Below are positions 24,127 to 36,489 of a DNA stretch of 51,299 nucleotides, piece after piece. Positions within the stretch are counted from its first letter, which is position 1, and every line of letters begins with the position of its first letter. The stretch is taken from contig JACMQX010000008.1 of the NCBI GenBank assembly GCA_014376765.1, forward strand, positions 1 through 51,299. Direction: 5' to 3'. This DNA comes from Ramlibacter sp. GTDB taxonomy: Bacteria > Pseudomonadota > Gammaproteobacteria > Burkholderiales > Burkholderiaceae_C. A model generated the notes under the pieces. It had not been told where the DNA came from. It did not search any database and saw only the letters and a program-made list of their open reading frames with translations. Both the position numbers and the translations under genes were made by a program.

Positions 24127-25026
24127 ATGAACCAACGCCTCACCCCCGGCACCATCTTGCTGCTCCTCGTCCCACCCTTGATGTGGGCCGGCAACGCGAT
24201 CGTCGGCCGCATGATGAATGGCCTCGTGCCGCCCATGACGCTCAATTTCCTGCGCTGGGCACTGGCCTTTGTGCTGTTGCTGCCGCTGGCCGGCTGGGTG
24301 CTCAGGCCGGGCAGCGGGCTGGTGGCCAGCTGGCGCCGCTTTGCCGTGCTGGGCTTGCTGGGCGTCGGGCTGTACAACGCCATGCAGTACCTGGCACTCA
24401 AGACCTCCACCCCGATCAACGTGACGCTTGTTGCAGCCAGCAACCCGATCTTCATGCTGGTGATCGGCACCCTGTTTTTCGGCCAGCGCATTGAGGCGCG
24501 GCAGGTGCTGGGGGCGGTGCTCTCACTGGCCGGCGTGCTGCTGGTGCTTGCGCGTGGCGAGTGGTCGCTGCTTATGCAACTGCAGTTGGTGTCCGGCGAT
24601 TTGTTCGTGCTGGTGGCCACGGCCTCCTGGGCGCTGTACAGCTGGCTGCTTAGCCAGCGGAACGAACCTGAAGCGATCCGCGCCGACTGGGCTGCCTTCC
24701 TGCTGGCGCAGATTGTGTTCGGCCTGCTGTGGTCGGGCAGCTTCGCCGCCACCGAATGGGCGGTGACCGACGCGCACCTGACCTGGAGCTGGCCGGTAGC
24801 AGCTGCCCTGCTGTTTGTGGCCGTGGGCCCGGCCATCGTGGCCTACCGCTGCTACGGAATGGGCGTGCTGCGCGTAGGGCCGAACGTAGCCGCCTTCTTC
24901 GTCAACCTCACGCCGCTGTTCGCCGCACTGATGTCCAGCGTGCTGCTGGGCGAGGCGCCGCACACCTACCACGCGCTGGCATTTGTGCTGATAGTGGGCG
25001 GGATCGTGGTGTCCTCAAGGAAATAG
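24127..25026 (+). CDS. EamA/DMT-superfamily transporter
   Basis: This 299-residue membrane protein has ten predicted helices in two EamA repeats. The first repeat opens ILLLLVPPLMWAGNAIVGRM and carries LNFLRW; the second is centred on GDLFVLVATASWALYSWLL. These are typical of drug/metabolite exporters. The ATG at 24127 is used; an in-frame GTG 48 bases upstream is possible but adds a non-hydrophobic stretch. The substrate is unknown. A hairpin repeat follows the stop. Confidence 0.88.
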   Translation: MNQRLTPGTILLLLVPPLMWAGNAIVGRMMNGLVPPMTLNFLRWALAFVLLLPLAGWVLRPGSGLVASWRRFAVLGLLGVGLYNAMQYLALKTSTPINVTLVAASNPIFMLVIGTLFFGQRIEARQVLGAVLSLAGVLLVLARGEWSLLMQLQLVSGDLFVLVATASWALYSWLLSQRNEPEAIRADWAAFLLAQIVFGLLWSGSFAATEWAVTDAHLTWSWPVAAALLFVAVGPAIVAYRCYGMGVLRVGPNVAAFFVNLTPLFAALMSSVLLGEAPHTYHALAFVLIVGGIVVSSRK

Positions 25027-25045
25027 TTGCGCCTTCGTGGGGGCC

Positions 25046-25123
25046 GTGGAACCGGCTTTGCCGGGCCACTGGCTTCGCCCCCCAGTGGGGGGAGCCGCGC
25101 AAAGCGCGCATCGGGGGGCGTCC
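25046..25123 (+). repeat. Dispersed multi-hairpin repeat, copy A
   Basis: About 78 bp containing three short palindromes in a row: CCGGCTTTGCCGG, then CCCCCCAGTGGGGGG, then a GCGC...GCGC arm, ending in CGGGGGGCGTCC. The same order occurs in copies at 31420-31493 and, inverted, at 33814-33895. It lies in the convergent gap between the EamA gene and the SDR gene and ends 1 bp before the SDR stop. Confidence 0.8.
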
Positions 25124-25124
25124 T

Positions 25125-25922
25125 TCAATACGTCCCCGGGTAAGCTCCACCGTCCATCAAGACGTTCTGGCCCGTGACGTAGCTGGCATGCTGGCTGCAC
25201 AAAAACGCGCACATGGCGCCAAACTCCGCAGGGGTGCCTAGCCGCTTGGCCGGCACAGCGGCACGCCGCGCTTCGAGAATTGCATCCACCGCCTGTCCCG
25301 TTTTCTCTGCTGTCCCCTTGGCCATGTTGCGGATGCGGTCGGTGTCAAACACGCCGGGCAGCAGGTTGTTGATGGTCACGTTGCTGGACGCCAGCTTGCT
25401 GGTGCGCGCCACGCCCGCCACAAAACCGGTGAGGCCGCTGCGCGCGCCGTTGGACAGGCCCAGCACATCGATCGGCGCCTTGACCGAGCTGGAGGTGATG
25501 TTCACGATGCGGCCAAAGCCGCGCTCGGCCATGCCGTCCACGCTCGCCTTGATTAGCTCGATCGGCGTGATCATGTTGGCGTCAACCGCCTTGATCCAGT
25601 CTTCGCGGTCCCAGTTGCGGAAGTCGCCCGGCGGCGGGCCGCCGGCATTGGTGACGATGATATCGAACTCCTTGCGCACCGCGAACACGGCCGCCCGGCC
25701 TTCTGCGGTGGTAATGTCGGCCGCCACGGCCGTGACCGTTGCTGATGCAGGGCGCGCCGGGTCGGCCAGCAAACCGGCAGCCGCTGCCTCCAGCACGGCT
25801 GCGCCGCGCGCGACGATCAGCACATGCACACCTTCACGGACCAGTGCCTGCGCGCAACCCAGCCCGAGGCCTTTGCTCGCGCCGCACACCAGCGCCCATT
25901 TGCCTGCAATTCCCAAATCCAT
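25125..25922 (-). CDS. SDR-family protein lacking the catalytic Tyr/Lys
   Basis: The 265-residue product starts MDLGIAGKWALVCGASKGLG, with an NAD(P)-binding GASKGLGLG and NAGG motif, a serine run (NITSSS) and the C-terminal substrate-loop segment typical of SDRs. Where the catalytic YxxxK should be, it reads GLSNGARSG, so neither the tyrosine nor the lysine is present. This matches a known atypical BKR-like SDR subgroup with an imperfect catalytic tetrad. It may be a non-classical enzyme or a non-catalytic protein. The start ATG at 25922 was preferred to one six codons upstream. It is divergent from the SH3 gene with a 36-bp gap. Confidence 0.88.
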   Translation of the reverse strand: MDLGIAGKWALVCGASKGLGLGCAQALVREGVHVLIVARGAAVLEAAAAGLLADPARPASATVTAVAADITTAEGRAAVFAVRKEFDIIVTNAGGPPPGDFRNWDREDWIKAVDANMITPIELIKASVDGMAERGFGRIVNITSSSVKAPIDVLGLSNGARSGLTGFVAGVARTSKLASSNVTINNLLPGVFDTDRIRNMAKGTAEKTGQAVDAILEARRAAVPAKRLGTPAEFGAMCAFLCSQHASYVTGQNVLMDGGAYPGTY

Positions 25923-25958
25923 AACAATCACCGCTTCCAAAGTAGTTCAGGAAAAACA

Positions 25959-26570
25959 ATGATACGTGCAGGGATGAAGAACATCAGCAGATGGCCTGGG
26001 CATTGCCTGGCCGGCCTTCTCATGCTGACGGGCGCTGCGGCGCTGGCGCAAACGGAACAGGTTCTGGTCAAACGCGCCGCCGAGTTGCGCGATGCGCCCG
26101 GTGAGTCGGGCAAAAGCATGGGTGCACTGGCTTTGCAGACGCCGGTGACGCGGCTGGGCGAACGCCAGGGTCAGTGGATCAAGGTGAGTACAACTGGCGG
26201 CGCCACAGGATGGCTGCACATGTTTGATGTCACCTCGCCGAATGCGCCCAGTACGGGGGGAAATGCCGTCACTGGCGCGCTGCGTGGCGTGACCAGCTTC
26301 TTCAACAAAGGCAGCGGGCAGGCACAGGCCAACACCTACGCCACCTCCACGGTGGGCATTCGCGGCCTGGGGGCAACAGACATCTCCAATGCACAACCCG
26401 ACCTCGCAGCGGTCGGCCGCGCCGAGGCGCTGCGGCTGGACGCAGGCCAGGCCCGGCAGTTTGCGCAGCAGGCGGCGCTCAATGTGCAGAACGTCGAGCC
26501 GTTGCCGGTACCGGCCAATCCGCGTGCGGCCAACACGAACCAGAACTTCAACCAGGGCAACACGCCATGA
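25959..26570 (+). CDS. Periplasmic SH3-domain protein
   Basis: This 203-residue protein has a signal peptide (hydrophobic core LAGLLMLTGAAALA, cleavage near ALAQ). An SH3_3-type domain follows (about 40-90, VLVKRAAELRDAPGESGKSM and GQWIKVSTTGGATGWLHM). The rest is low-complexity and asparagine/glutamine-rich. Such domains often bind peptidoglycan or other periplasmic partners. Its stop overlaps the start of the M48 protease gene (ATGA), so the two are translationally coupled. AGGA lies 7 nt before the ATG. Confidence 0.82.
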   Translation: MIRAGMKNISRWPGHCLAGLLMLTGAAALAQTEQVLVKRAAELRDAPGESGKSMGALALQTPVTRLGERQGQWIKVSTTGGATGWLHMFDVTSPNAPSTGGNAVTGALRGVTSFFNKGSGQAQANTYATSTVGIRGLGATDISNAQPDLAAVGRAEALRLDAGQARQFAQQAALNVQNVEPLPVPANPRAANTNQNFNQGNTP

Positions 26571-27694
26571 GCGCCGCATTCCGATTTCACCAACTGGCGC
26601 TCACCGCCGCACTGGCTGCCTGCTTGCCCTGCGCATTCGCGCAGAACCAGGATGCTGCCAAAGTACTCAACCTGTTCCAGGGCTTGATCAAGCCCGCGCA
26701 GCCACTTCAGCCTGTGCAACCTGTGCAGCCGCAGCAACTCAGCACCAACCCGCTGGCCAACATGCTTGGCAATGCAGTGGCGCCGGCAGCCCTGAACACC
26801 ATCATCAACACCAACGCCACTCCCATCCCCAACAACGCGGCCAACCGGGGCGCCGAGCTGATCAGCATGCTGACGCAATCGCTCGAGCAGATCGACGAGC
26901 CGCGCGAGATTGAAATCGGCCGGCAACTCTCGGCCGTGCTGCTGGGCAGCAAGCCGCTGTACCCGGGCATGGCCGTGCAGCGCTACGTCAACCAGCTGGG
27001 CCGCTGGATCAGCCTGCAGTCGTCCCGTCCCGACCTGCCCTGGACCTTTGCCGTGCTGGACGACCCGGGCTTCAACGCCTTCGCAGCGCCCGGCGGTTTT
27101 GTGTACATCACCAGGGGCCTGCTGGACCAGGTGAAAGACGAAAGCGAGCTCGCCGGCATCCTGGCGCATGAGATCAACCACGTCACCGGCAAGCATCACC
27201 TGAAGGCCATGCGCAAGATCGCGCGGGCCGGCTTGTTGACGCAGGCCATAGGCTCAAGGTTGGGCGGCAACAACGAGATCGCAGGCGCCATCTCGTCGCA
27301 AGTGCTTGCGCTGGGCAAAGACCTGTACGCCAAAGGCCTGGACCAGGACGATGAGTTCGAGGCCGACCGCAACGGCGTCGCCCTGGCGGCCCGTTCGGGC
27401 TTTGACCCGTACGGCCTGGTTTCGGTGCTGCTGCAACTGCGCACGGCCGCACCTGACAACCCGATGTTTGCACTGCAGCTGAGCACGCACCCACCATCTC
27501 AGGTGCGGCTGGACCAGATCGAGCAGGCGATGGGGACGCGGCTGGACGCCTTGTCCGGCAAGCCGCCGATCACGGTGGCGCAGCGCATGGAACGCTTGCA
27601 GGCTGCGGCACAGGCCAGTACGGCAGCAGCAGCCCGGCCTGTTGCCGCTCCTGCCGCCCCATCGCGCAAACAGGCGCCGCAGAAAAAGCAGTAG
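26567..27694 (+). CDS. M48-family periplasmic zinc metalloprotease (BepA/LoiP-like)
   Basis: The 375-residue protein has a signal peptide (ALTAALAACLPCAFA). The M48 motif HEINH (201-205) follows ILA, and the third zinc ligand is in DDEFEADRNG (about Glu263). The family segment FNAFAAPGGFVYITRGL is present. It resembles the BepA/LoiP/YcaL group that degrades or assists outer-membrane proteins. BepA-type TPR repeats are not visible. A proline-glutamine stretch (QPLQPVQPVQPQQ) precedes the domain. It overlaps the SH3-domain gene by four bases, so the two may act together at the outer membrane. Confidence 0.9.
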   Translation: MSAAFRFHQLALTAALAACLPCAFAQNQDAAKVLNLFQGLIKPAQPLQPVQPVQPQQLSTNPLANMLGNAVAPAALNTIINTNATPIPNNAANRGAELISMLTQSLEQIDEPREIEIGRQLSAVLLGSKPLYPGMAVQRYVNQLGRWISLQSSRPDLPWTFAVLDDPGFNAFAAPGGFVYITRGLLDQVKDESELAGILAHEINHVTGKHHLKAMRKIARAGLLTQAIGSRLGGNNEIAGAISSQVLALGKDLYAKGLDQDDEFEADRNGVALAARSGFDPYGLVSVLLQLRTAAPDNPMFALQLSTHPPSQVRLDQIEQAMGTRLDALSGKPPITVAQRMERLQAAAQASTAAAARPVAAPAAPSRKQAPQKKQ

Positions 27695-27761
27695 CAACTC
27701 GCGGCTGCGGAGCGACGCTCGGACCCACACATCAATTCAAAACCTGTTCACGAGATGGCCC

Positions 27762-28958
27762 ATGAAAAGTTTGACAGTCACAGGCTCCCCGCACAATTTC
27801 AAACACGTACGCGCTGCCATGCAGCGCCAGGTAGACACGGAGATCCTTGCCGGCGTGTCGTGGGCCATCCTGCGGGGCCAGGACTTGCTGGACGTTCAAT
27901 CTGTGGGTTGGGCAGACAAGGAAAGCCAGGCGCCGCTGCGCACTGACCATATCTTTCGCGCCATGTCCAACACCAAGCTGGTGACGTCCATCGCGGTGAT
28001 GCTGCTATGGGAAGAGGGCCGATTCCAGCTGGATGACCCTGTTGCCAGGTTCATCCCCCAGCTTGCCAACCTGCAGGTGCTCAAGCCCGGCGCGACGCGC
28101 CTGGACGATACCGAGCCGGCCCGCAGCCCGATCACCATCCTTCAACTGCTCACCCACAGCTCGGGCTTGAGCTACGGTCTCCTGGATCCGGGCAGCCTGC
28201 TGTTCAAGGCGTACAACGAACGGGGCGTGCTCAATACCAGCCAGCCCCTGCCGAACATGATCGAGGTACTGGCCAGCTTGCCGCTGATGTTCCAGCCCGG
28301 CACCTCCTGGGAATATTCGGTCGCCACCGACGTGCTCGGTTATCTGGTTGAAGTCGTCACTGGCCAGGGGCTGGACCAATTTTTCCAGTCACGCATTTTT
28401 GAACCGCTGGGGATGGTGGACACCGCCTTCAGCTTGCCCGCAGACAAGCTGGACCGGTTGACGACCTGCTACATGGGCGCTGACCTGACGGACCCGACCA
28501 AGCCGGGGTTGAGCGCCACCAAAATGGCGTGGGTGGGCGACTTTCGCAAGCCCATGCCGATGAAACTGGGCGGCGGCGGCCTGGCAACGACGCTGCCCGA
28601 CATGGTGGCGTTGATGCGCAGCCTGCTGCCTGGCGGCAAATCAGTCCTGAAGCCGGCCACGCTGGCCATGATGATGACCAACCAGTTGCCAGAAGGCCGG
28701 AACATCCAGTTCGCCAGGTTCGGCGAAATCCAGGGCAAGGGCTATGGGCTGGGCGGCGCCGTCACGGTCCGGGCATCGGCCATTGATCCGCCTGCATCCA
28801 CGGGTGAATTCCAGTGGGGCGGCCTGGCTGGAACGCACTGGTGGGTATCGCCGCAAACCGGCTTGGCAGGTGTACTCATGACGCAGCGCTTCATGGGCTT
28901 CTGGAACCCGTTTTCATTTGAGTTCAAGCACCTGGCGTACCGAGCTGCCGGCCACTAG
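27762..28958 (+). CDS. Beta-lactamase-fold serine hydrolase (family VIII esterase/class C-like)
   Basis: The 398-residue protein, starting MKSLTVTGSPHNFKHVRAAM, has the SxxK motif S69-N-T-K72 and the second-box tyrosine in WEYSVATDVLGYL (Tyr185). WGGLAGTHWW stands at the third KTG-like position. This is the pattern of EstB-type esterases and class C beta-lactamase relatives, here without a signal peptide, so probably cytoplasmic. YSV rather than YxN suggests an esterase or lactonase rather than an antibiotic-hydrolysing enzyme. It is convergent with the gamma-glutamyltransferase gene (22-bp gap). Confidence 0.85.
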   Translation: MKSLTVTGSPHNFKHVRAAMQRQVDTEILAGVSWAILRGQDLLDVQSVGWADKESQAPLRTDHIFRAMSNTKLVTSIAVMLLWEEGRFQLDDPVARFIPQLANLQVLKPGATRLDDTEPARSPITILQLLTHSSGLSYGLLDPGSLLFKAYNERGVLNTSQPLPNMIEVLASLPLMFQPGTSWEYSVATDVLGYLVEVVTGQGLDQFFQSRIFEPLGMVDTAFSLPADKLDRLTTCYMGADLTDPTKPGLSATKMAWVGDFRKPMPMKLGGGGLATTLPDMVALMRSLLPGGKSVLKPATLAMMMTNQLPEGRNIQFARFGEIQGKGYGLGGAVTVRASAIDPPASTGEFQWGGLAGTHWWVSPQTGLAGVLMTQRFMGFWNPFSFEFKHLAYRAAGH

Positions 28959-28980
28959 CTGGCTTTGGTCCTTATAAGCC

Positions 28981-30591
28981 TCAGAACCCGACAGCCTGCC
29001 CGTCACGCCGCGAGTCACTGGCTGCGACGTAACCTTCTACCTTCGGGTTGCCCGCACGCCAGATGAATTGGCCGGCGCCGAAGTCCTGGTAGGAGTCGTT
29101 GATCACTTCCATGGTGTGCCCACGGTCGGCCAGGCCTTGCACCAGGCCCTTGTCCATTGCCGCTTCCACATTGATCTCCAGCCCTGCATTGAAACGCCAG
29201 CGCGGCGCATCGCAGGCCACCTGAGGGCTTTGTTTGTAATCAAGCATGCGCACCAGCGTTTGCAAATGGCCCTGCGGCTGCATGTTGCCGCCCATCACAC
29301 CATGGCTCATGACCGGCTGGCCGTCTTTGGTCAGGAAGGCCGGGATGATGGTGTGGAAGGGCCGCTTGCCCGGTGCCACGATGTTGGGGCTGCCATCGTT
29401 CAAGCTGAAGCCGTGACCACGGTTTTGCAGGCTGACACCAAATTCCGGCTCCACGCAACCGGAGCCAAAGCCCATGTAGTTGCTCTGGATGAAGCTCACC
29501 ATCATGCCGTTCTCATCGGCTGCGGTGAGGTAGATGGTGCCGCCCTTGACCGGGTTGCCCGCCTTGAAGTCCTGCGCCTTTTTCATGTCGATGAGCTTGG
29601 CGCGGGAGGTCAGATAGGCGTCGTCCAGCATCTGCTCGGGCGTGACCGACATCGACGATCCCTCGGCCACGTATTTATAGACGTCGGCGAAAGCCAGCTT
29701 CATCGCCTCGATCTGCAGATGTTGCGAGTCGACCGAGTCCACTGGCAGTGACGCCATGTCGAACTTGTCCACAATGCCCAGCGCGATCAGCGCCGCGATG
29801 CCCTGGCCGTTCGGCGGGATCTCGTGCATGGTGTAGCCGCGGTAGTTCTTGGAGATGGGCTTGACCCATTCCGGCTTGTAAGCCGCCATGTCAGCTGCGG
29901 TGAGGCTGCCGCCGTTCTGACTGGAAAAGCGCTCCAGCGCGGCTGCGATCTCGCCGCGGTAAAAAGACTCGCCCTTGGTCGCAGCAATGGCACGCAGGCC
30001 GCGTGCTGCTGCCTTGAACTGGAACAGCTCCCCCACATTCGGCGCACGCCCCCAAGGCAAGAAGCCCTGCGCAAAACCTGGCTGGCTCTTTAGCTCGTCA
30101 GTGGCGGCGGCCCACTTCTGCTGAATCACTGTCGGCAGCAAGTAGCCGCGCTCTGCAATCTCGATGGCCGGCTCAAGCAGGTCGGCAAAAGGCAGCTTGC
30201 CAAAGCGCTCGCTCAAAGACACCCATGCACCCACAGCGCCTGGCACCGTCGCCGAGTCCAGGCCCCGCTTGGGTGGCGTGCTTTCCGCGCCGTATTTCTG
30301 CTTGAAGTACCCCGGCGTCCAGGCCTTGGGCGACGGGCCCGAGGCGTTCAGGCCATGCAGTTCCTTGCCGTCCCAGAGGATGCAGAACGCATCGCTGCCC
30401 AGCCCATTGCTCACCGGCTCGCAGATGGTCATGGCGGCCGCTGCGGCAATGGCCGCATCAACCGCGTTGCCGCCCTTGAGCATCATGCGCAGGCCGGCTT
30501 GCGCGGCCAAAGGGTGGGAGGTCGACACCACGTTGCGTGCGAACAGCGGGATGCGGGTGGACGTATAGGGGTTGTCGAAGTTGAAGTTCAT
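28981..30591 (-). CDS. ggt: Gamma-glutamyltransferase family protein
   Basis: This 536-residue Ntn-hydrolase of the GGT family (gamma-glutamyl transpeptidase or acylase) shows the N-terminal block GGNAVDAAIAAAAAM and the glycine-rich NGLGSDAFCILWDG. The processing site is KGGTIYLTAADENG, where Thr352 would become the catalytic N-terminal threonine of the small subunit. NMQPQGHLQ follows near the C-terminus. No signal peptide is seen, unlike classical periplasmic GGT, so this may be a cytoplasmic acylase-type member. The substrate is not assigned. It is divergent from the XRE regulator gene with 57 bp between starts, suggesting possible shared control. Confidence 0.9.
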   Translation of the reverse strand: MNFNFDNPYTSTRIPLFARNVVSTSHPLAAQAGLRMMLKGGNAVDAAIAAAAAMTICEPVSNGLGSDAFCILWDGKELHGLNASGPSPKAWTPGYFKQKYGAESTPPKRGLDSATVPGAVGAWVSLSERFGKLPFADLLEPAIEIAERGYLLPTVIQQKWAAATDELKSQPGFAQGFLPWGRAPNVGELFQFKAAARGLRAIAATKGESFYRGEIAAALERFSSQNGGSLTAADMAAYKPEWVKPISKNYRGYTMHEIPPNGQGIAALIALGIVDKFDMASLPVDSVDSQHLQIEAMKLAFADVYKYVAEGSSMSVTPEQMLDDAYLTSRAKLIDMKKAQDFKAGNPVKGGTIYLTAADENGMMVSFIQSNYMGFGSGCVEPEFGVSLQNRGHGFSLNDGSPNIVAPGKRPFHTIIPAFLTKDGQPVMSHGVMGGNMQPQGHLQTLVRMLDYKQSPQVACDAPRWRFNAGLEINVEAAMDKGLVQGLADRGHTMEVINDSYQDFGAGQFIWRAGNPKVEGYVAASDSRRDGQAVGF

Positions 30592-30648
30592 GGCTCATTA
30601 TCGAACGTATCATTGCCGCGTGCAGGCGCAGAACATCCCGGAGGAAAC

Positions 30649-31392
30649 ATGGCCGATACCTCGCTGTTGATCGACGTGATCAAGCTCGAACTCAAGGCGC
30701 AGAGCAAGACCTATGCCGATGTCGCCGCGTCGCTGGACATGAGCGAGTCCAGCGTCAAGCGCATGTTCAGCCGCAAGGAAATGCCGCTGACCCGTGTGGA
30801 CGACATTTGCCGCATCCTCAACACCGATTTTGCCGAGCTGTCGCGCCGCGTCACGCTGGCCACACCCCTCATGAGCGAGCTGACGTACGAGCAGGAAGTG
30901 GCCGTCAGCCGCGACCCCAAGCTGCTGTTGACCGCGATCTGTGTGCTCAGTTACTGGACGCTGGAGCAGATGGTGCAGACCTATGACATCACCGAGGCGG
31001 AATGCACCGCCAAGCTGGTGCAGCTGGACCGGCTGGGCGTGATCGAGCTCAAACCACTCAACCGCTACCGGCTCAAGGTCGCCAAGACCTTCAAATGGCG
31101 CGGCGACGGGCCGATCCGCCAGTATTTCCTCACCCACATCGTGGGCGAGTATTTTGGCGGCCGTTTTGACCGCGAAGGCGAGACCCTGCTCATGGTCCAC
31201 GGCAGCATCAACAAGGCTGTGGCGCCGAATTTTGTGGAGCGGCTCACCAGGCTAGGCCAGGACTTTTCACAGCAGCACCTGGCCGACCAGAAGATGGACG
31301 CCAGGCACCGCGACGGCTTCACGATGATTGTGGGATTCAGGCGCTGGGAGTTCTCTGCGTTTACCGGACTCAGGCGAGAGCAAGTCGCTTGA
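30649..31392 (+). CDS. XRE-type helix-turn-helix transcriptional regulator
   Basis: This 247-residue protein has an N-terminal Cro/CI-type HTH (about 16-60: KTYADVAASLDMSESSVKRM) and a C-terminal region of about 180 residues with no named domain. That region contains a short MarR/winged-type segment (ECTAKLVQLDRLGVIELKPL). The ATG at 30649 is preceded by GGAGG 5 nt away and agrees with the family N-terminus. It is divergent from ggt and may control it. No ligand is assigned. Confidence 0.87.
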   Translation: MADTSLLIDVIKLELKAQSKTYADVAASLDMSESSVKRMFSRKEMPLTRVDDICRILNTDFAELSRRVTLATPLMSELTYEQEVAVSRDPKLLLTAICVLSYWTLEQMVQTYDITEAECTAKLVQLDRLGVIELKPLNRYRLKVAKTFKWRGDGPIRQYFLTHIVGEYFGGRFDREGETLLMVHGSINKAVAPNFVERLTRLGQDFSQQHLADQKMDARHRDGFTMIVGFRRWEFSAFTGLRREQVA

Positions 31393-31419
31393 CGGTCAGA
31401 AGCGGAACCATGCAGGAAT

Positions 31420-31493
31420 GCGTGGATCCGGCTTCGCCGGCCCGCTGCATTGCCCCCCAGTGGGCCGGGCGGCGAAGCCGCTTCGGGGGCGTC
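31420..31493 (+). repeat. Dispersed multi-hairpin repeat, copy B
   Basis: About 74 bp with the same order of motifs as copy A: GCGTGGATCCGGCTTCGCCG, then CTGCATTGCCCCCCAGTGGG, then GGCGAAGCC, then CGGGGGCGTC. It fills the convergent gap between the XRE gene and the Bug receptor gene, ending 2 bp before the latter's stop. Its end runs into a short T-run (CTTTTATT), so it may also act as a plus-strand terminator. Confidence 0.8.
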
Positions 31494-31495
31494 TT

Positions 31496-32467
31496 TTATT
31501 CTGCCGTGATCTTGCGCTCCGCAATGATCTTCTTCCACTTGGCGTAATCGCCCGCCAGCATCTGGGTGAACTGCTGCGGCGAGCCGCCCACGGGCTCAAT
31601 CCCCAAGCGGCCCAGCTTGTCTTTTACATCCGGCTCGGCAAGCGCCTGGTTGGCAGCGGTGTTCACCTTGGCCAGGATGTCTGCAGGCAAGCCCTTGGGC
31701 CCGTACAAACCAAACCAGGTGTTGGATTCAAAGCCGGGCAGCAGCTCGGCAATCGCAGGCAGGTCAGGCGCCATCGAGGTGCGTTTGGCAGAAGTGACGC
31801 CCAGCGCGCGCAAACGGCCGTCGCGCACATGCGGCAAGCCGGTGGGCAGGGAGTCGAACAGCACGTCCACCTTGCCCGACACCAGGTCGGGGATGGCCAA
31901 CGCGGTGCCCTTGTACGGAATGTGCACGAGGAACACCCCCGCCTGCGCCTTGAACAGCTCGGCAGTGAGCTGCACGATGGTGCCGTTGCCGCTGGATGCG
32001 TAGTTGAGCTTGCCCGGATTCTTGCGCGCGTAGTCGATCCACTCCCTGAGCGTTTTGGCTGGCGAGTTGTTGGGCACCAGCATGATGTTCGGCGCATTGC
32101 CAACGTGGCAGATCGGCACAAAATCCTGCACCGCGTCATACGGCATCTTGGGGTTGAGGTTGGGGCCGATGGTGTGCGTGCTGGAGGTGGCCAGCAGCAG
32201 CGTGTAACCGTCAGCGGGCGCCTTGGCCACCTGGTCAGAGCCGATGGTGCCGCCGGCGCCGGGCCGGTTTTCCACCACCAGCGAGCTGCCTAGTTTTTCG
32301 CCCAGCTTCTGCGACAGCACCCGCGCGAACAGGTCGGTTGCACCAGCCGCAGGGAACGGCACGATGAGCCTCACGGGTCTGTTGGGATAGGGGCCGGACT
32401 GCGCAAGGACACCAGTGGATGCAAGGCCTGAAAGCCCCGCGTTGATGATGAGTTGGCGGCGCTTCAT
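31496..32467 (-). CDS. Bug/TctC-family periplasmic solute-binding receptor
   Basis: This 323-residue protein has a signal peptide (INAGLSGLASTGVLAQ) and the Bug fold. Its segments are RPVRLIVPFPAAGATDLFAR, VVENRPGAGGTIGS and ADGYTLLLATSSTHTI, with a C-terminal AGDYAKWKKII. Bug proteins feed the tripartite tricarboxylate transporters or sense solutes. The TctA/TctB genes of this window lie about 2.5 kb upstream on the same strand but are separated by unrelated genes, so a functional link is possible but not shown. Such receptors are very numerous in Burkholderiales. The ligand is unknown. Confidence 0.92.
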   Translation of the reverse strand: MKRRQLIINAGLSGLASTGVLAQSGPYPNRPVRLIVPFPAAGATDLFARVLSQKLGEKLGSSLVVENRPGAGGTIGSDQVAKAPADGYTLLLATSSTHTIGPNLNPKMPYDAVQDFVPICHVGNAPNIMLVPNNSPAKTLREWIDYARKNPGKLNYASSGNGTIVQLTAELFKAQAGVFLVHIPYKGTALAIPDLVSGKVDVLFDSLPTGLPHVRDGRLRALGVTSAKRTSMAPDLPAIAELLPGFESNTWFGLYGPKGLPADILAKVNTAANQALAEPDVKDKLGRLGIEPVGGSPQQFTQMLAGDYAKWKKIIAERKITAE

Positions 32468-32480
32468 GGCCGATATTTTG

Positions 32481-33776
32481 TCAGGCTTTCATAACCTTGT
32501 TGTGCAGCCGCCTGAGCGAGAACCACACCCCGCACACGACGACGGGTATGGCCAGTGCGGCTGTAGTCTCGGGGCTGAGCGGCCAGCCCGCGTGATTGGC
32601 TGCCTTGGCCAAATAGTGCACCAGGCCAGCTATGTAGTAGGTAATGGCCACGACCGACAGACCCTCCACCGTGGACTGCAGCTGCAGCTGCAAACCCTGG
32701 CGGTGATTCATCGCGCCGAGCAGCGCCTGGCTGCTTTGCTGCTGCTCAATCTCGACGCGCGTGCGCAGCAGGTTGCTCATGCGCGAGACCCGTTGCGACA
32801 GCGCGTCCTGCCGCCGTGTGGCCCATTCGCAGGTACTGCGCGCAGGGCTCAGGCGGCGGGTCATGAACTCGCCGATGGTCTGCATGCCGGCGAGGCGCGA
32901 CTCCGCAATGTCCGCAATGCGCTTGTCCACCAGCTCGAAGTACGCAGCGCTGGCGGAAAAGCGCGAGTGCGTCGCAGCGTACTGGCTCTCCACCTGGCCT
33001 GCCAGCCGCGTGAGGCGGTCCAGCAGTTGCGGCTCGTCGTGCCGCGCCGCCATGCGGATGGATTCAGCCAGCCCGGCCAGCTCACGCTCGGCAAAGCCCA
33101 GCACGGCCGAGGCTTCGCGGGCCGCTGGCAGGCCCAGCAAGGCGGCCATGCGGTAGGTCTCGATTTCCATCAATTGCTGCACGAGCCGCCCCAGCCGGCG
33201 CGGCGCGACACTGCTGGCCAGCAGCACCATGCGAGAGAACCCGTCTGCGTGGATCGCAAAGTCGGTGTGGACCTCGCCATAGCCGTCGGCAATGGTGGAG
33301 GCGACCATCGTGTCTTCGTTCAGCACATGCTTGACCAGTGAATAGTCGTTGCCCATCGTGTGCGCGCCCAGCACCCACAGGTGCAGGGACACCAGGCTTT
33401 CACCCGGCAGGCTGGCCAGCCATTCCTGGGGCACCACGTCGCTGGCGCCGCCCGGCTCGCGCTCGCCAAAGCCGGTAGGGTCCAACGGGCGCGAGAAGGT
33501 CCAGCTCACAAACTCGGTGTGCAGTTCCCAACGCAGCCGGAAAGCGCCCAGGTCCATGCGAATGTGGATGGAGTGAGCGTCGGGTGCGGGCAGATGGTGG
33601 CCCTGCAGCAGCGCGGCCAGATGCGCGCGGCTGGCCTCGCGCTGGCTGGCATCGCAGGCCATGACGACATGCGACAGCGCCATGGGCGCTGTCAAAGCCT
33701 CAGGCGGACGGGCGTGAATTTCATTGTGCAGCGCGACCCTTTGGGGGTGCTGCCGCAGATAAGGACTGGCTTGCAT
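32481..33776 (-). CDS. DUF3422 family membrane protein
   Basis: The 431-residue protein starts MQASPYLRQHPQRVALHNEI. It has long charged helical regions (about 200-370, rich in Arg, Glu and Ala) and two C-terminal membrane helices (GLSVVAITYYIAGLVHYL and TTAALAIPVVVCGVWFSL). This matches the DUF3422 family of inner-membrane proteins with a cytoplasmic helical domain; its function is not established. The Bug receptor gene lies 13 bp downstream, so they may be cotranscribed. Copy C of the hairpin repeat lies just upstream of its start. Confidence 0.88.
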   Translation of the reverse strand: MQASPYLRQHPQRVALHNEIHARPPEALTAPMALSHVVMACDASQREASRAHLAALLQGHHLPAPDAHSIHIRMDLGAFRLRWELHTEFVSWTFSRPLDPTGFGEREPGGASDVVPQEWLASLPGESLVSLHLWVLGAHTMGNDYSLVKHVLNEDTMVASTIADGYGEVHTDFAIHADGFSRMVLLASSVAPRRLGRLVQQLMEIETYRMAALLGLPAAREASAVLGFAERELAGLAESIRMAARHDEPQLLDRLTRLAGQVESQYAATHSRFSASAAYFELVDKRIADIAESRLAGMQTIGEFMTRRLSPARSTCEWATRRQDALSQRVSRMSNLLRTRVEIEQQQSSQALLGAMNHRQGLQLQLQSTVEGLSVVAITYYIAGLVHYLAKAANHAGWPLSPETTAALAIPVVVCGVWFSLRRLHNKVMKA

Positions 33777-33813
33777 AAAGGCATCTTAAACGCCCCCCGT
33801 CCGGCGGATATAG

Positions 33814-33895
33814 GACGCCCCCCGATGCGCCTTTGGCGCCTCCCCCCCACTGGGGGGCAATGCAGTGGACCGGCGCAGCCGGATCCACGCATTCT
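33814..33895 (-). repeat. Dispersed multi-hairpin repeat, copy C (inverted)
   Basis: About 82 bp. Its reverse complement reads, in order, GAATGCGTGGATCCGGC, then a CCGG hairpin, then CTGCATTGCCCCCCAGTGGG, a GCGCC/GGCGC arm and GGGGGGCGTCC, matching copy B closely. It sits between the small gene at 33928 and the DUF3422 start. A nearby direct duplicate of ACGCCCCCC (33790-33798) may be a leftover of the same element. Confidence 0.8.
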
Positions 33896-33927
33896 GGGAT
33901 AGAGCTTTGCGCGCCGGGGGCGTTTCC

Positions 33928-34152
33928 TTACTCGTCGCGGACGAAAAGCGCCATGAAGGTGTCGCACTCCGCTGCCAATGCTGCGCTGCCGGAGGTGTGC
34001 TGGGCCTCGCCGTGCATGGCTGTGGTCAGCGCTGGCGAACCTGACCTGATGGTGGTCTCTGCTGGAATCTTGGCGCTGAGAGCGGCGGGCACCGCGGCAG
34101 AGTTGGAGGGACGCACGGCCGGGAGGCTGATTGCTGGCGGAATGAATGACAC
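33928..34152 (-). CDS. Small Ser/Ala/Pro-rich protein downstream of a type III chaperone (hypothetical)
   Basis: A 74-residue open frame with a GTG start and a well-placed GAAGGA site 6 nt upstream. It begins 35 bp after the CesT-family gene on the same strand. The N-terminal 60 residues are rich in Ser, Ala, Pro and Thr with few acidic residues, and the C-terminus ends ECDTFMALFVRDE. That composition is like a type III secretion signal or disordered segment. No family is recognised. The placement suggests a chaperone-partner pair. It could also be a chance frame, but the ribosome site and spacing argue for a real gene. Confidence 0.55.
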   Translation of the reverse strand: MSFIPPAISLPAVRPSNSAAVPAALSAKIPAETTIRSGSPALTTAMHGEAQHTSGSAALAAECDTFMALFVRDE

Positions 34153-34187: not shown

Positions 34188-34652
34188 TCAGGCCAGACGG
34201 GCAAAACGAAGTTCACCGCTGGAGGCGTTGGCTGCGCTGTCCAGAAAGTAGTCGCGTGACCAACGCGCCACATGGTCGGAGAACTTGTTGAGGAAGGTAT
34301 GCACGCCGGGCACATGCAACTGCGACAGCGGCGTCATGCGGTGCAGAAAAATCTCGCCCGTCTCGGGCATCTGGACAAAAGCGCCTCCGCCCTTTTGCAT
34401 CATCAGGAAGTTGGCATTCATCAGGTTGGCCATGACCTCGGCCGCCTTATCGCTGGGCGGCGCGCCGAATTTCACCAGCATCGACATGTTTTCCGAGCGG
34501 TGTGACCTGCGCTCGATGAAGCTGAACTCGGTGCCCTTGTGCGTGATGGTGAAGGCGCGGCGGCCTTCGTCATCACAGGTCAGCGACGGGAGTTCCAGGT
34601 TGAGCAACTCACAAAGCTGGATGGAAAAATCGTCAAAATCTGCTGCGGCCAT
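34188..34652 (-). CDS. CesT/Tir-family type III secretion chaperone (orphan)
   Basis: This 154-residue acidic alpha/beta protein starts MAAADFDDFSIQLCELLNLE. It shows the CesT-family outline: an N-terminal helix, then beta strands (RRAFTITHKGTEFSFIER), a middle helix (EVMANLMNANFLMMQKGGG) and a strand pair (GGAFVQMPETGEIFLHRM). Such proteins form dimers and bind a non-globular segment of a secreted effector. No type III secretion machinery is encoded in the window. The small GTG-start gene downstream is its best partner candidate. Two dyads lie upstream of its start. Confidence 0.8.
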   Translation of the reverse strand: MAAADFDDFSIQLCELLNLELPSLTCDDEGRRAFTITHKGTEFSFIERRSHRSENMSMLVKFGAPPSDKAAEVMANLMNANFLMMQKGGGAFVQMPETGEIFLHRMTPLSQLHVPGVHTFLNKFSDHVARWSRDYFLDSAANASSGELRFARLA

Positions 34653-34977: not shown

Positions 34978-36489
34978 CTATTCTTCGACAAACGCCTCTT
35001 CGCGCTTGTTCTTCACCGCCGGCAGCAGCACGATGATGATCAGCACTGCGGCCGCAGCCAGCAGGCCGGCCGACAGGGGGCGTGTCACAAACACGCTCCA
35101 GTCGCCGCGCGACAGCAAGAGCGCGCGGCGCAGGTTCTCTTCCATCATCGGCCCCAGGATGAAGCCCAGCAACAGCGGCGCGGGCTCGCAACCGAGCTTG
35201 ATGAACAGGTAGCCAATGAACCCAAACGCCGCCACCATCCAGATGTCGAAGGTGTTGTTGTTGGTCGAGTACACGCCGACGGCGCAGAACAGCACAATCG
35301 CCGGGAACAGGAAACGATAGGGCACCGTCAGCAGCTTGATCCACATGCCGATCAGCGGCAGATTCAAAATCACCAGCATCAGGTTGCCGATCCACATCGA
35401 GGCGATCAGGCCCCAGAACAGTTGCGGATTGCTGGTCATGACCTGCGGGCCGGGCTGGATGTTGTGGATGGTCATGGCGCCCACCATCAGCGCCATCACG
35501 GCGTTGGGCGGGATGCCCAGCGTCAACAGCGGGATGAACGAAGTCTGCGCGCCGGCATTGTTCGCCGACTCGGGGCCAGCCACGCCGCGAATGTTGCCCT
35601 TGCCGAAGGCAATTTCACCCGGCTTGAGCTTGATTTTCTTCTCAAGCGTATAGGCCGCAAAAGCCGCCAGCAGGGCGCCGCCCCCCGGCAAGATGCCCAG
35701 GGCAGAGCCCAGTGCGGTCCCACGAAGCACGGCCGGCGCCATGTGCTTGAAGTCTTCCTTGGTCGGGAGCAGACCGCTGACCTTGGCTGTAAAAATCTCG
35801 CGCTCGTCTTCTGGCTGCGACAGGTTGGAGATGATTTCACCGTAGCCGAACACGCCCATGGCAATCACAACAAAGCCGATGCCGTCAGTCAGTTCCGGAA
35901 TGTCAAACGAGAAGCGCGCCACACCCGAGTTGACGTCCGTCCCCACCAGACCCATCAAGAGGCCCAGCACGATCATGGCAATCGCCTTGATCAGCGAACC
36001 CGAAGCCAGCACCACCGCGCCAATCAGGCCCAGGATCATCAGCGAGAAATATTCTGCCGGGCCGAACTTGAAAGCCAGTTCCGTCAGCGGCGGTGCAAAG
36101 GCAGCCAGGATAAGTGTGCCGACTGAGCCCGCAAAGAACGAACCCAGGCCGGCCGCGGCGAGCGCGGGCCCCGCCCTGCCCTGCCTTGCCATCTGGTAGC
36201 CGTCAATACAGGTCACGACCGATGAGGACTCGCCAGGCAGGTTTACCAGAATCGCCGTCGTCGAGCCGCCATACTGCGCGCCGTAGTAAATGCCGGCCAG
36301 CATGATGAGGGCCGAGACGGGAGGCAGCGCATAAGTCGCAGGCAGCAGCATGGCAATGGTGGCCACCGGCCCGATGCCGGGAAGCACGCCGATCAGTGTG
36401 CCCAACACGCAACCGATGAAGGCATACATGAGGTTGATGGGCGTGAACGCAACGCCAAAGCCAAGCGCGAGGTTTGAAAGCAGTTCCAT
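34978..36489 (-). CDS. tctA: Tripartite tricarboxylate transporter, large membrane subunit TctA
   Basis: This 503-residue protein has about 11-12 membrane helices and the TctA signature region (GVLPGIGPVATIAMLLPATY, then YYGAQYGGSTTAILVNLPGE). It is the main permease subunit that imports citrate or other carboxylates with a Bug-type TctC receptor. It lies 14 bp after tctB, forming a tctBA unit; a TctC gene is not adjacent. The nearest Bug receptor (31496-32467) is a candidate partner only. Charged residues at the C-terminus (KNKREEAFVEE) are cytoplasmic. Confidence 0.95.
   Translation of the reverse strand: MELLSNLALGFGVAFTPINLMYAFIGCVLGTLIGVLPGIGPVATIAMLLPATYALPPVSALIMLAGIYYGAQYGGSTTAILVNLPGESSSVVTCIDGYQMARQGRAGPALAAAGLGSFFAGSVGTLILAAFAPPLTELAFKFGPAEYFSLMILGLIGAVVLASGSLIKAIAMIVLGLLMGLVGTDVNSGVARFSFDIPELTDGIGFVVIAMGVFGYGEIISNLSQPEDEREIFTAKVSGLLPTKEDFKHMAPAVLRGTALGSALGILPGGGALLAAFAAYTLEKKIKLKPGEIAFGKGNIRGVAGPESANNAGAQTSFIPLLTLGIPPNAVMALMVGAMTIHNIQPGPQVMTSNPQLFWGLIASMWIGNLMLVILNLPLIGMWIKLLTVPYRFLFPAIVLFCAVGVYSTNNNTFDIWMVAAFGFIGYLFIKLGCEPAPLLLGFILGPMMEENLRRALLLSRGDWSVFVTRPLSAGLLAAAAVLIIIVLLPAVKNKREEAFVEE

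Follow-up and report, generated by a model that had tools for sequence, protein, structure and literature searches.

A repeat family with three hairpins per unit that adjoins stop codons in Ramlibacter and its relatives

Why palindromic repeats gather beside stop codons is, to our knowledge, a question that has stayed open since the work on the repetitive extragenic palindromic (REP) elements of Escherichia coli. It is raised again by three copies (A, B and C) of a multi-hairpin repeat in a 51,299-nucleotide stretch of DNA from Ramlibacter sp. (contig JACMQX010000008.1; hereafter the window). An earlier note on this DNA described an ordered set of palindromes common to the three copies, and this was borne out, as the palindromes are present, align well and give one anatomy. 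Its observation that two copies lie in convergent gaps and end 1-2 bp from a stop codon also stands; these are copies A and B, which are separated by 2 bases in each case from the stop codon of the neighbouring minus-strand gene. The main regularity is one that the earlier note did not contain, namely the direction of the copies and their tight spacing to stop codons. This placement hints at a link between the repeats and the end of protein synthesis.

In the orientation of copies A and B, the first part of a unit is hairpin 1, which consists of an outer stem AATGC/GCATT (variant in copy A), then GTGG/CCAC and then CCGGC-loop-GCCGG. Hairpin 2, CCCCCC-AGT-GGGGGG, is partly mismatched in copy B and is followed by a variable GC-rich hairpin 3 and a final G-run with a CGTC end. 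In gene sense the order is reversed: CCCCC comes at once after the stop codon, followed by hairpin 3, hairpin 2 and hairpin 1. Unit length is about 80-110 bp, or about 160-175 bp including a tail in the arrays of genome G171. In Rfam, copies A, B and C have no match at E≤1, and no match at gathering score was found in 16 loci.

Placement was analysed in eight sets of copies with a simple codon-usage gene caller written for this analysis. Six sets are core copies of relatives (65 of 65 copies used in G020, 78 of 96 in G171, 34 of 66 in G014, 37 of 69 in G109, 7 of 63 in G122 and 7 of 81 in G123), one is from the Ramlibacter genome itself (21 of 22), and the last comprises 19 copies found by a looser pattern in loci of 25 relatives. 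Intergenic copies account for 263 of the 268, and among 261 copies with both flanking genes called, 5 lie in divergent gaps. In tandem gaps of the seven sets outside the Ramlibacter genome, the C-rich end faces the stop codon of the upstream gene 187 times and the reverse occurs 11 times (p 1.8e-42, computed without correction for related genomes). Spacing was counted for fully parsed ("full") copies only, and "within 15 nt" includes overlaps of up to 20 nt. Outside the Ramlibacter genome, 172 of 186 full stop-facing copies are within 15 nt of the stop codon, and the distances peak at 0 and 4-6 nt. Of the eight exceptions in G171, five or more are inner members of arrays.

The rule also holds in convergent gaps, where the C-rich end is the closer end in 29 of 32 full copies outside the Ramlibacter genome and in 7 of 8 within it. 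This end lies within 15 nt of the stop codon in 28 of the 32 copies, whereas 5.8 are expected under uniform placement, and none of 20,000 uniform-placement simulations reached the observed value. Neutral accumulation in the only free space, with purging elsewhere, was rejected because the C-rich end still adjoins a stop codon in convergent gaps. Eight plasmid matches were also opened; four have no annotated neighbours, one lies inside an annotated coding sequence (CDS), and three obey the rule, the annotated CDS ending past the BLAST match in the expected direction by 16 nt (Diaphorobacter), 4 nt (Variovorax SRS16) and 23 nt (Comamonadaceae OTU4NAUVB1).

We also considered that the element supplies the stop codon. 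This is not favoured, since stop types next to the element in G171 (TGA 35, TAG 11 and TAA 4 of 50) follow the background (554, 152 and 60 of 766), and since the stop falls at the same codon in 7 of 11 ortholog alignments read by eye. Some copies, such as G171_61, may nevertheless supply it. Beside the G020 copies (L114-L162), an excess of TAG was seen (21/57 versus 176/820 genes, p 0.013), which is absent in G171.

Any explanation must take account of both direction and stop-codon placement, and two then remain, action on the mRNA at the stop codon and steered insertion. We prefer action on the mRNA. Steered insertion is close behind because the most similar copies obey the rule and the pairing looks DNA-level, and both can hold together. 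The favoured reading, to which we give a probability of about 0.5, is that the copies are REP-like, transposase-orphan, strand-specific elements of the 3' untranslated region that probably act on terminating ribosomes or on mRNA ends. They would form a family of mobile, non-autonomous repeats with several hairpins, found in Comamonadaceae and close relatives and spread via a putative enzyme acting on the DNA hairpin. An inserted element would become part of the mRNA of the upstream gene, and its first hairpins would lie under or just ahead of the ribosome reading the stop codon. The element may thereby slow or tune termination and recycling, or set the 3' boundary of the mRNA. By analogy, such an effect would be akin to the one proposed, according to PMC12306157, for E. 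coli REPs lying no more than 15 nt from a stop codon.

The hairpins themselves are well maintained. In 26 copies of the Ramlibacter genome, 95.6% of hairpin 1 cells are paired, compared with 23-43% for partners shifted by 1-3 columns, and none of 500 shuffles matched the paired cells, the cells with two-sided change or the covariation score. For pairs with two-sided change, 19 of 500 shuffles reached the observed value; for further pair types 447 of 500 did, and this measure gives no support. Across the eight sets, 65 distinct outer 5' arms occur among 268 copies. At least five of the six outer pairs are kept in 245 of these copies, against a mean of 137 and a maximum of 154 when 3' arms are shuffled within sets (the best of three offsets was taken and G-T counted as paired, in the shuffled control alike). 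The compensatory changes that the earlier note had suspected are thus present, as two-sided changes retain the pairing. Wobble pairs occupy 21 of 2412 inner-stem cells, a count from pattern-selected copies and hence biased towards pairing. In two G020 copies (L135 9619 and L148 9683), the loop of hairpin 2 is enlarged to an extra inner palindrome, and the C-run and G-run are still complementary.

Several observations weigh against the favoured reading, the first group of them concerning the strand. Wobble pairs are about as frequent on the gene-sense strand as on the other strand (44 versus 42 in the outer stem, 8 versus 13 in the inner stem), and the gene-sense strand folds less stably on average in 7 of 7 sets, significantly in six. 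As there is no wobble excess and the other strand folds more stably, the pairing looks as if it is maintained, by constraint or correction, at the DNA level and not by selection on the mRNA of the gene. The second concerns similarity. The correct orientation is found in 60 of the 63 most mutually similar copies and in 64 of the 70 copies of the least similar third, so that the copies most like one another already obey the rule, which fits functionless targeted insertion equally well. The third is the Ramlibacter genome, a draft of 336 contigs, in which 30 of 36 copies (those with loci) could be placed: 16 in convergent gaps, 6 in tandem gaps in the usual direction, 4 in tandem gaps reversed and 4 in divergent gaps. 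The tandem ratio is thus 6:4, or 4:4 in the 21-copy set, and the direction bias is significantly weaker than in the other sets. Spacing in this genome is tight, with 21 of 22 stop-facing copies within 15 nt of the stop codon or overlapping it (two overlaps are of 21-22 nt). Finally, G020 and G171 belong to a common genus and share at least six sites, and their sets are therefore not fully independent.

The main rival is a selfish insertion directed to stop codons, in which the element has no host function and a mobilisation enzyme inserts it just after stops in a fixed direction, perhaps on a DNA, RNA or translation-linked cue of gene ends. We regard it as possible and on balance rather unlikely. 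It is favoured by the rule being obeyed by the most mutually similar copies and by the two-sided changes, which, as neither strand has a wobble excess, point to a hairpin of DNA. In three of four relatives the number of copies in each kind of gap also follows the number of stop codons there (the convergent share agrees with the stop-codon count in G171, G109 and G014; that of G020 is slightly low, p 0.05), and G171 has tandem arrays. No transposase was found, however, and no fixed target motif was noticed, although no motif search was run. Stop types broadly follow the background, except for the TAG excess in G020, and it is hard to account for how a DNA enzyme would recognise real stop codons. 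In a related form, insertion would be steered to stop codons in a fixed direction through coupling to the translation or transcription of the target gene, independently of the REP-associated transposase (RAYT); this version seems slightly less probable again.

The earlier note had offered bifunctional transcription terminators as one identity for the repeats, and a bidirectional or bifunctional terminator would explain strong hairpins at gene ends and the 16 of 30 Ramlibacter copies in convergent gaps. This convergent lean, however, has p 0.07 against the stop-codon expectation, and convergent gaps are not enriched in G020, G171, G109 and G014. On the gene-sense strand, 2 of 219 full copies have a T-tract after hairpin 1. 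On the opposite strand, one is found in 27 of 219, a higher share than the 33 of 1585 recorded 75 nt past stops generally, although the complement of the stop codon contributes T on that strand. In addition, orthologues of nine tandem-gap copies have just 14-88 bp between the aligned flanks, and a terminator should need neither a fixed direction nor contact with a stop codon. A terminator role for the whole family was rejected on the T-tract count and the lack of convergent preference in the four relatives tested, and we consider it very unlikely. A scan for terminator-like sites found one within copy B, at 31479-31491 (15 sites in the scan versus 7.4 expected).

The arrangement of runs suggests another possibility, a translation-gated RNA switch in which one G-run could pair either with the stop-side C-run or with that of hairpin 2, and a ribosome at the stop codon would decide which hairpin forms. 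In 95% of 219 parsed copies none of the three runs is shorter than 4, and the stop-side C-run would lie inside the usual footprint of a terminating ribosome. Run lengths, however, covary weakly. In G171 neither pairing is clear, and in G020 and G109 the covariation is stronger with hairpin 2 than with the stop-side run. With run-length covariation this poor, the case for mutually exclusive hairpins is weak, and the switch is the most improbable of the readings considered here.

Is the family then a classic REP family mobilised by RAYT, a Y1 transposase? Its elements are short extragenic palindromes with genome-specific subfamilies, they lie near stop codons as E. coli REPs do, and the Ramlibacter genome has one RAYT-like gene. 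Y1 presence was compared in 15 copy-rich and 15 zero-copy genomes, chosen by hand from a scan of 150 genomes for the core. Y1 matches were equally common in both (13 of 15 copy-rich genomes, 12 of them above the family cut-off, and 13 of 15 zero-copy genomes), and none was found in G020, G011, G122 and G166, despite 35-65 core copies each. No Y1 locus of the 43 inspected has the element in its flanks, whereas 8 have another repeat, AATTGGGGNCAGA; 15 of the 43 loci come from one genome and 7 from core-less genomes, which leaves about 21 fully informative. The presence and locus data mostly refute a RAYT-driven REP family, which was rejected and appears quite unlikely. The RAYT association that the earlier note proposed to look for was thus not found. 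The RAYT-like gene mentioned above is the sole one of the Ramlibacter genome (L031, contig C250, open reading frame (ORF) 1168-1866 on the minus strand, 232 aa). It has AATTGGGGTCAGATT-type repeats near both ends, and the same repeats occur at the Y1 genes of seven other loci.

The family can also be set beside repeats that are already known. The earlier study of REPs and stop codons in E. coli is reportedly that of Liang, Rudd and Deutscher from 2015. In PMC12306157, an earlier study is cited as proposing that 260 of 496 REPs lie within 15 nt of stop codons, the paper's own count is 446 of 4,072, and REPs at 15 nt or less from a stop codon are cited as stalling ribosomes. A hairpin within 15 nt of the stop is also what we find outside the Ramlibacter genome. 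Like the stop-proximal REPs of that paper, the elements are palindromic, extragenic and present in many copies, some near stops. Unlike them, 172 of 186 full stop-facing copies are this close, the direction is near-fixed outside Ramlibacter, each unit has three hairpins, and there is no RAYT link. The CGTC-tagged REPs of PMC3733652 are small palindromic repeats without an associated transposase, so that an orphan family has a precedent. Our elements resemble them in being small, palindromic and transposase-less, and the copies of Ramlibacter mostly end in CGTC (15 of 17 full copies, versus 5 of 202 in the other sets). According to PMC3733652, CGTC REPs have one 8-9 bp stem, a 4-5 nt loop and a short tail mostly fitting CCA, and are mostly head-to-head dimers. 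Here, in contrast, there are three hairpins per unit, the G171 arrays are head-to-tail and the CGTC end is rare outside Ramlibacter. By eye, no GTAG-type unpaired tag was seen at either end in the Ramlibacter alignment or in copies of relatives. BOX, RUP and ERIC are short interspersed elements, similar to miniature inverted-repeat transposable elements, which are non-autonomous, intergenic and fold as RNA. The elements described here are likewise short non-autonomous repeats between genes with RNA folding, and differ in having no terminal inverted repeat by eye and in their direction and adjacency to stop codons.

The earlier note expected a chromosome-wide family, and the covariance model that it suggested supports this, because the Ramlibacter genome contains not three but at least 36 matches. 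The model was built from 26 copies, 150 of 3985 candidates were scored with it, and the cut-off was E≤0.01; four of the matches are weak (E 0.0019-0.0079). BLAST with copy C gave 32 matches. The family is far above chance in this genome. At E≤1e-4, the same model matched 25 of 60 genomes, namely the Ramlibacter genome and 24 of 35 others in its family, and none of 24 genomes of other families. Of 150 genomes of the same family, 96 carry the core hairpin pattern, with a maximum of 96 copies in one, whereas a reversed core pattern gave at most 2 per genome in these 150 genomes. Judged from the names of matching organisms, we infer that the sampled family is Comamonadaceae in the broad sense. Among 300 genomes drawn from the order, 13 have the core: six of the nine drawn from the same family, three of nine from a second family (f4), with 121, 14 and 8 copies, and four single hits. 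One locus was read in each of the three f4 genomes and shows the same anatomy; in L296 and L298 the C-rich end follows the stop codon of a called gene, and in L297 it faces a gene start. The f4 genome with 121 copies (G245) has some head-to-tail arrays with a period of about 82-135 bp (e.g., G245:C1:231871-232089 and 237271-237563). When named genomes were scanned with a strict pattern, the one match was to a Ramlibacter metagenome assembly. Copy C had no match among plasmid and phage sequences, and two other copies used as queries matched 6 and 7 plasmid records; the plasmid matches are from Variovorax, Diaphorobacter, Methylibium, a Comamonadaceae bacterium and Burkholderia anthina. The family is widespread in Comamonadaceae and close relatives.

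The other identity that the earlier note offered was a mobile REP-like element. Orthologous sites seen both empty and occupied support mobility, as do tandem arrays; the RAYT part is not supported, as described above. Between G020 and G171, 28 comparisons had both flanks aligned, and 15 partners were empty and 13 occupied. The 13 are six sites seen from both sides and G171_11, a site that itself reads empty and for which the match is to a neighbouring element; two of the empty comparisons are one tandem pair. This gives about 15 distinct empty sites and six shared ones; an empty site may reflect gain in one genome or loss in the other. Since orthologous sites may be empty or occupied, the family appears mobile. 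In the six shared sites, the identity of hairpin 1 to its orthologue is 74-88%, and that to the best copy elsewhere in the same genome is 83-95%; only at G020_44 is the orthologue closer than the best paralogue. These identities hint at conversion or repeated occupation, although taking the best of many paralogues makes the comparison generous. One clean empty site (G171_42 versus L131) has CATAT on both sides, a possible 5-bp duplication; other flanks are too diverged. The head-to-tail arrays of G171 have periods mostly of about 160-175 bp, with one of about 251 bp. No terminal inverted repeats were seen by eye in the Ramlibacter copies, as the ends GAATGCGTGG and GGGGGGCGTC are not inverted, although the true ends are not fixed. 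In Methylibium the copy falls within a CDS annotated as a transposase, which has an N-terminal HTH_Tnp_1 match; this copy gave no evidence of an autonomous partner for the element.

Returning to the window, covariance-model limits place copy A at 25040-25122 (+), copy B at 31416-31493 (+) and copy C at 33814-33894 (-). Copy A lies between an EamA transporter gene (24127-25026, +) and a short-chain dehydrogenase/reductase gene (25125-25931, -), whose stop codon it abuts. It is composed of hairpin 1 with the variant outer stem GGGGCC/GGCTTC, hairpin 2 CCCCCCAGTGGGGGG, hairpin 3 GCGCGC and the terminal GGGGGGCGTC. Copy B abuts the stop codon of a TctC-type receptor gene (31496-32467, -), and on its other side is a gene at 30649-31392 (+), for which a longer ORF from 30355 has an HTH_26 domain. 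Its hairpin 1 has the outer stem AATGC/GCATT, hairpin 2 is the partly mismatched form, hairpin 3 is GCGGC/GCCGC and the terminal part is GGGGGCGTC. In copy C, hairpin 1 is at approximately 33893-33859, hairpin 2 at 33857-33842, hairpin 3 at 33841-33826, and the terminal GGGGGGCGTC runs to 33814. The copy has the inverted orientation, with its C-rich end towards the start side of the gene at 32481, and is flanked on both sides by truncated end pieces read by eye. One is a C-end piece at 33904-33923 (-), which starts 4 nt past TAA at 33930-33928, read by eye as the stop codon of a putative short ORF. The other, at 33791-33807 (-), comprises the hairpin 3 side and the terminal G-run. Upstream of the putative short ORF that ends at 33928, a CesT-family (type III secretion chaperone-like) protein is encoded at 34188-34652 (-), and a sub-threshold Rfam match to Cis8_sRNA (46.3 bits versus a gathering score of 58) is at 35324-35451 (+).

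No title or abstract on the family turned up in the literature searched, a search outside which most subscription papers fell; as far as that literature goes, both the family itself and its near-fixed direction and spacing are new. The family marks a class of repeats outside the coverage of Rfam. If stop-directed insertion is true, it would add a new type to the target specificities of bacterial mobile DNA. The strong rules of direction and spacing, together with a pair of genomes from one genus that has both empty and filled sites, would make function and targeting separable experimentally and through comparative RNA-seq.

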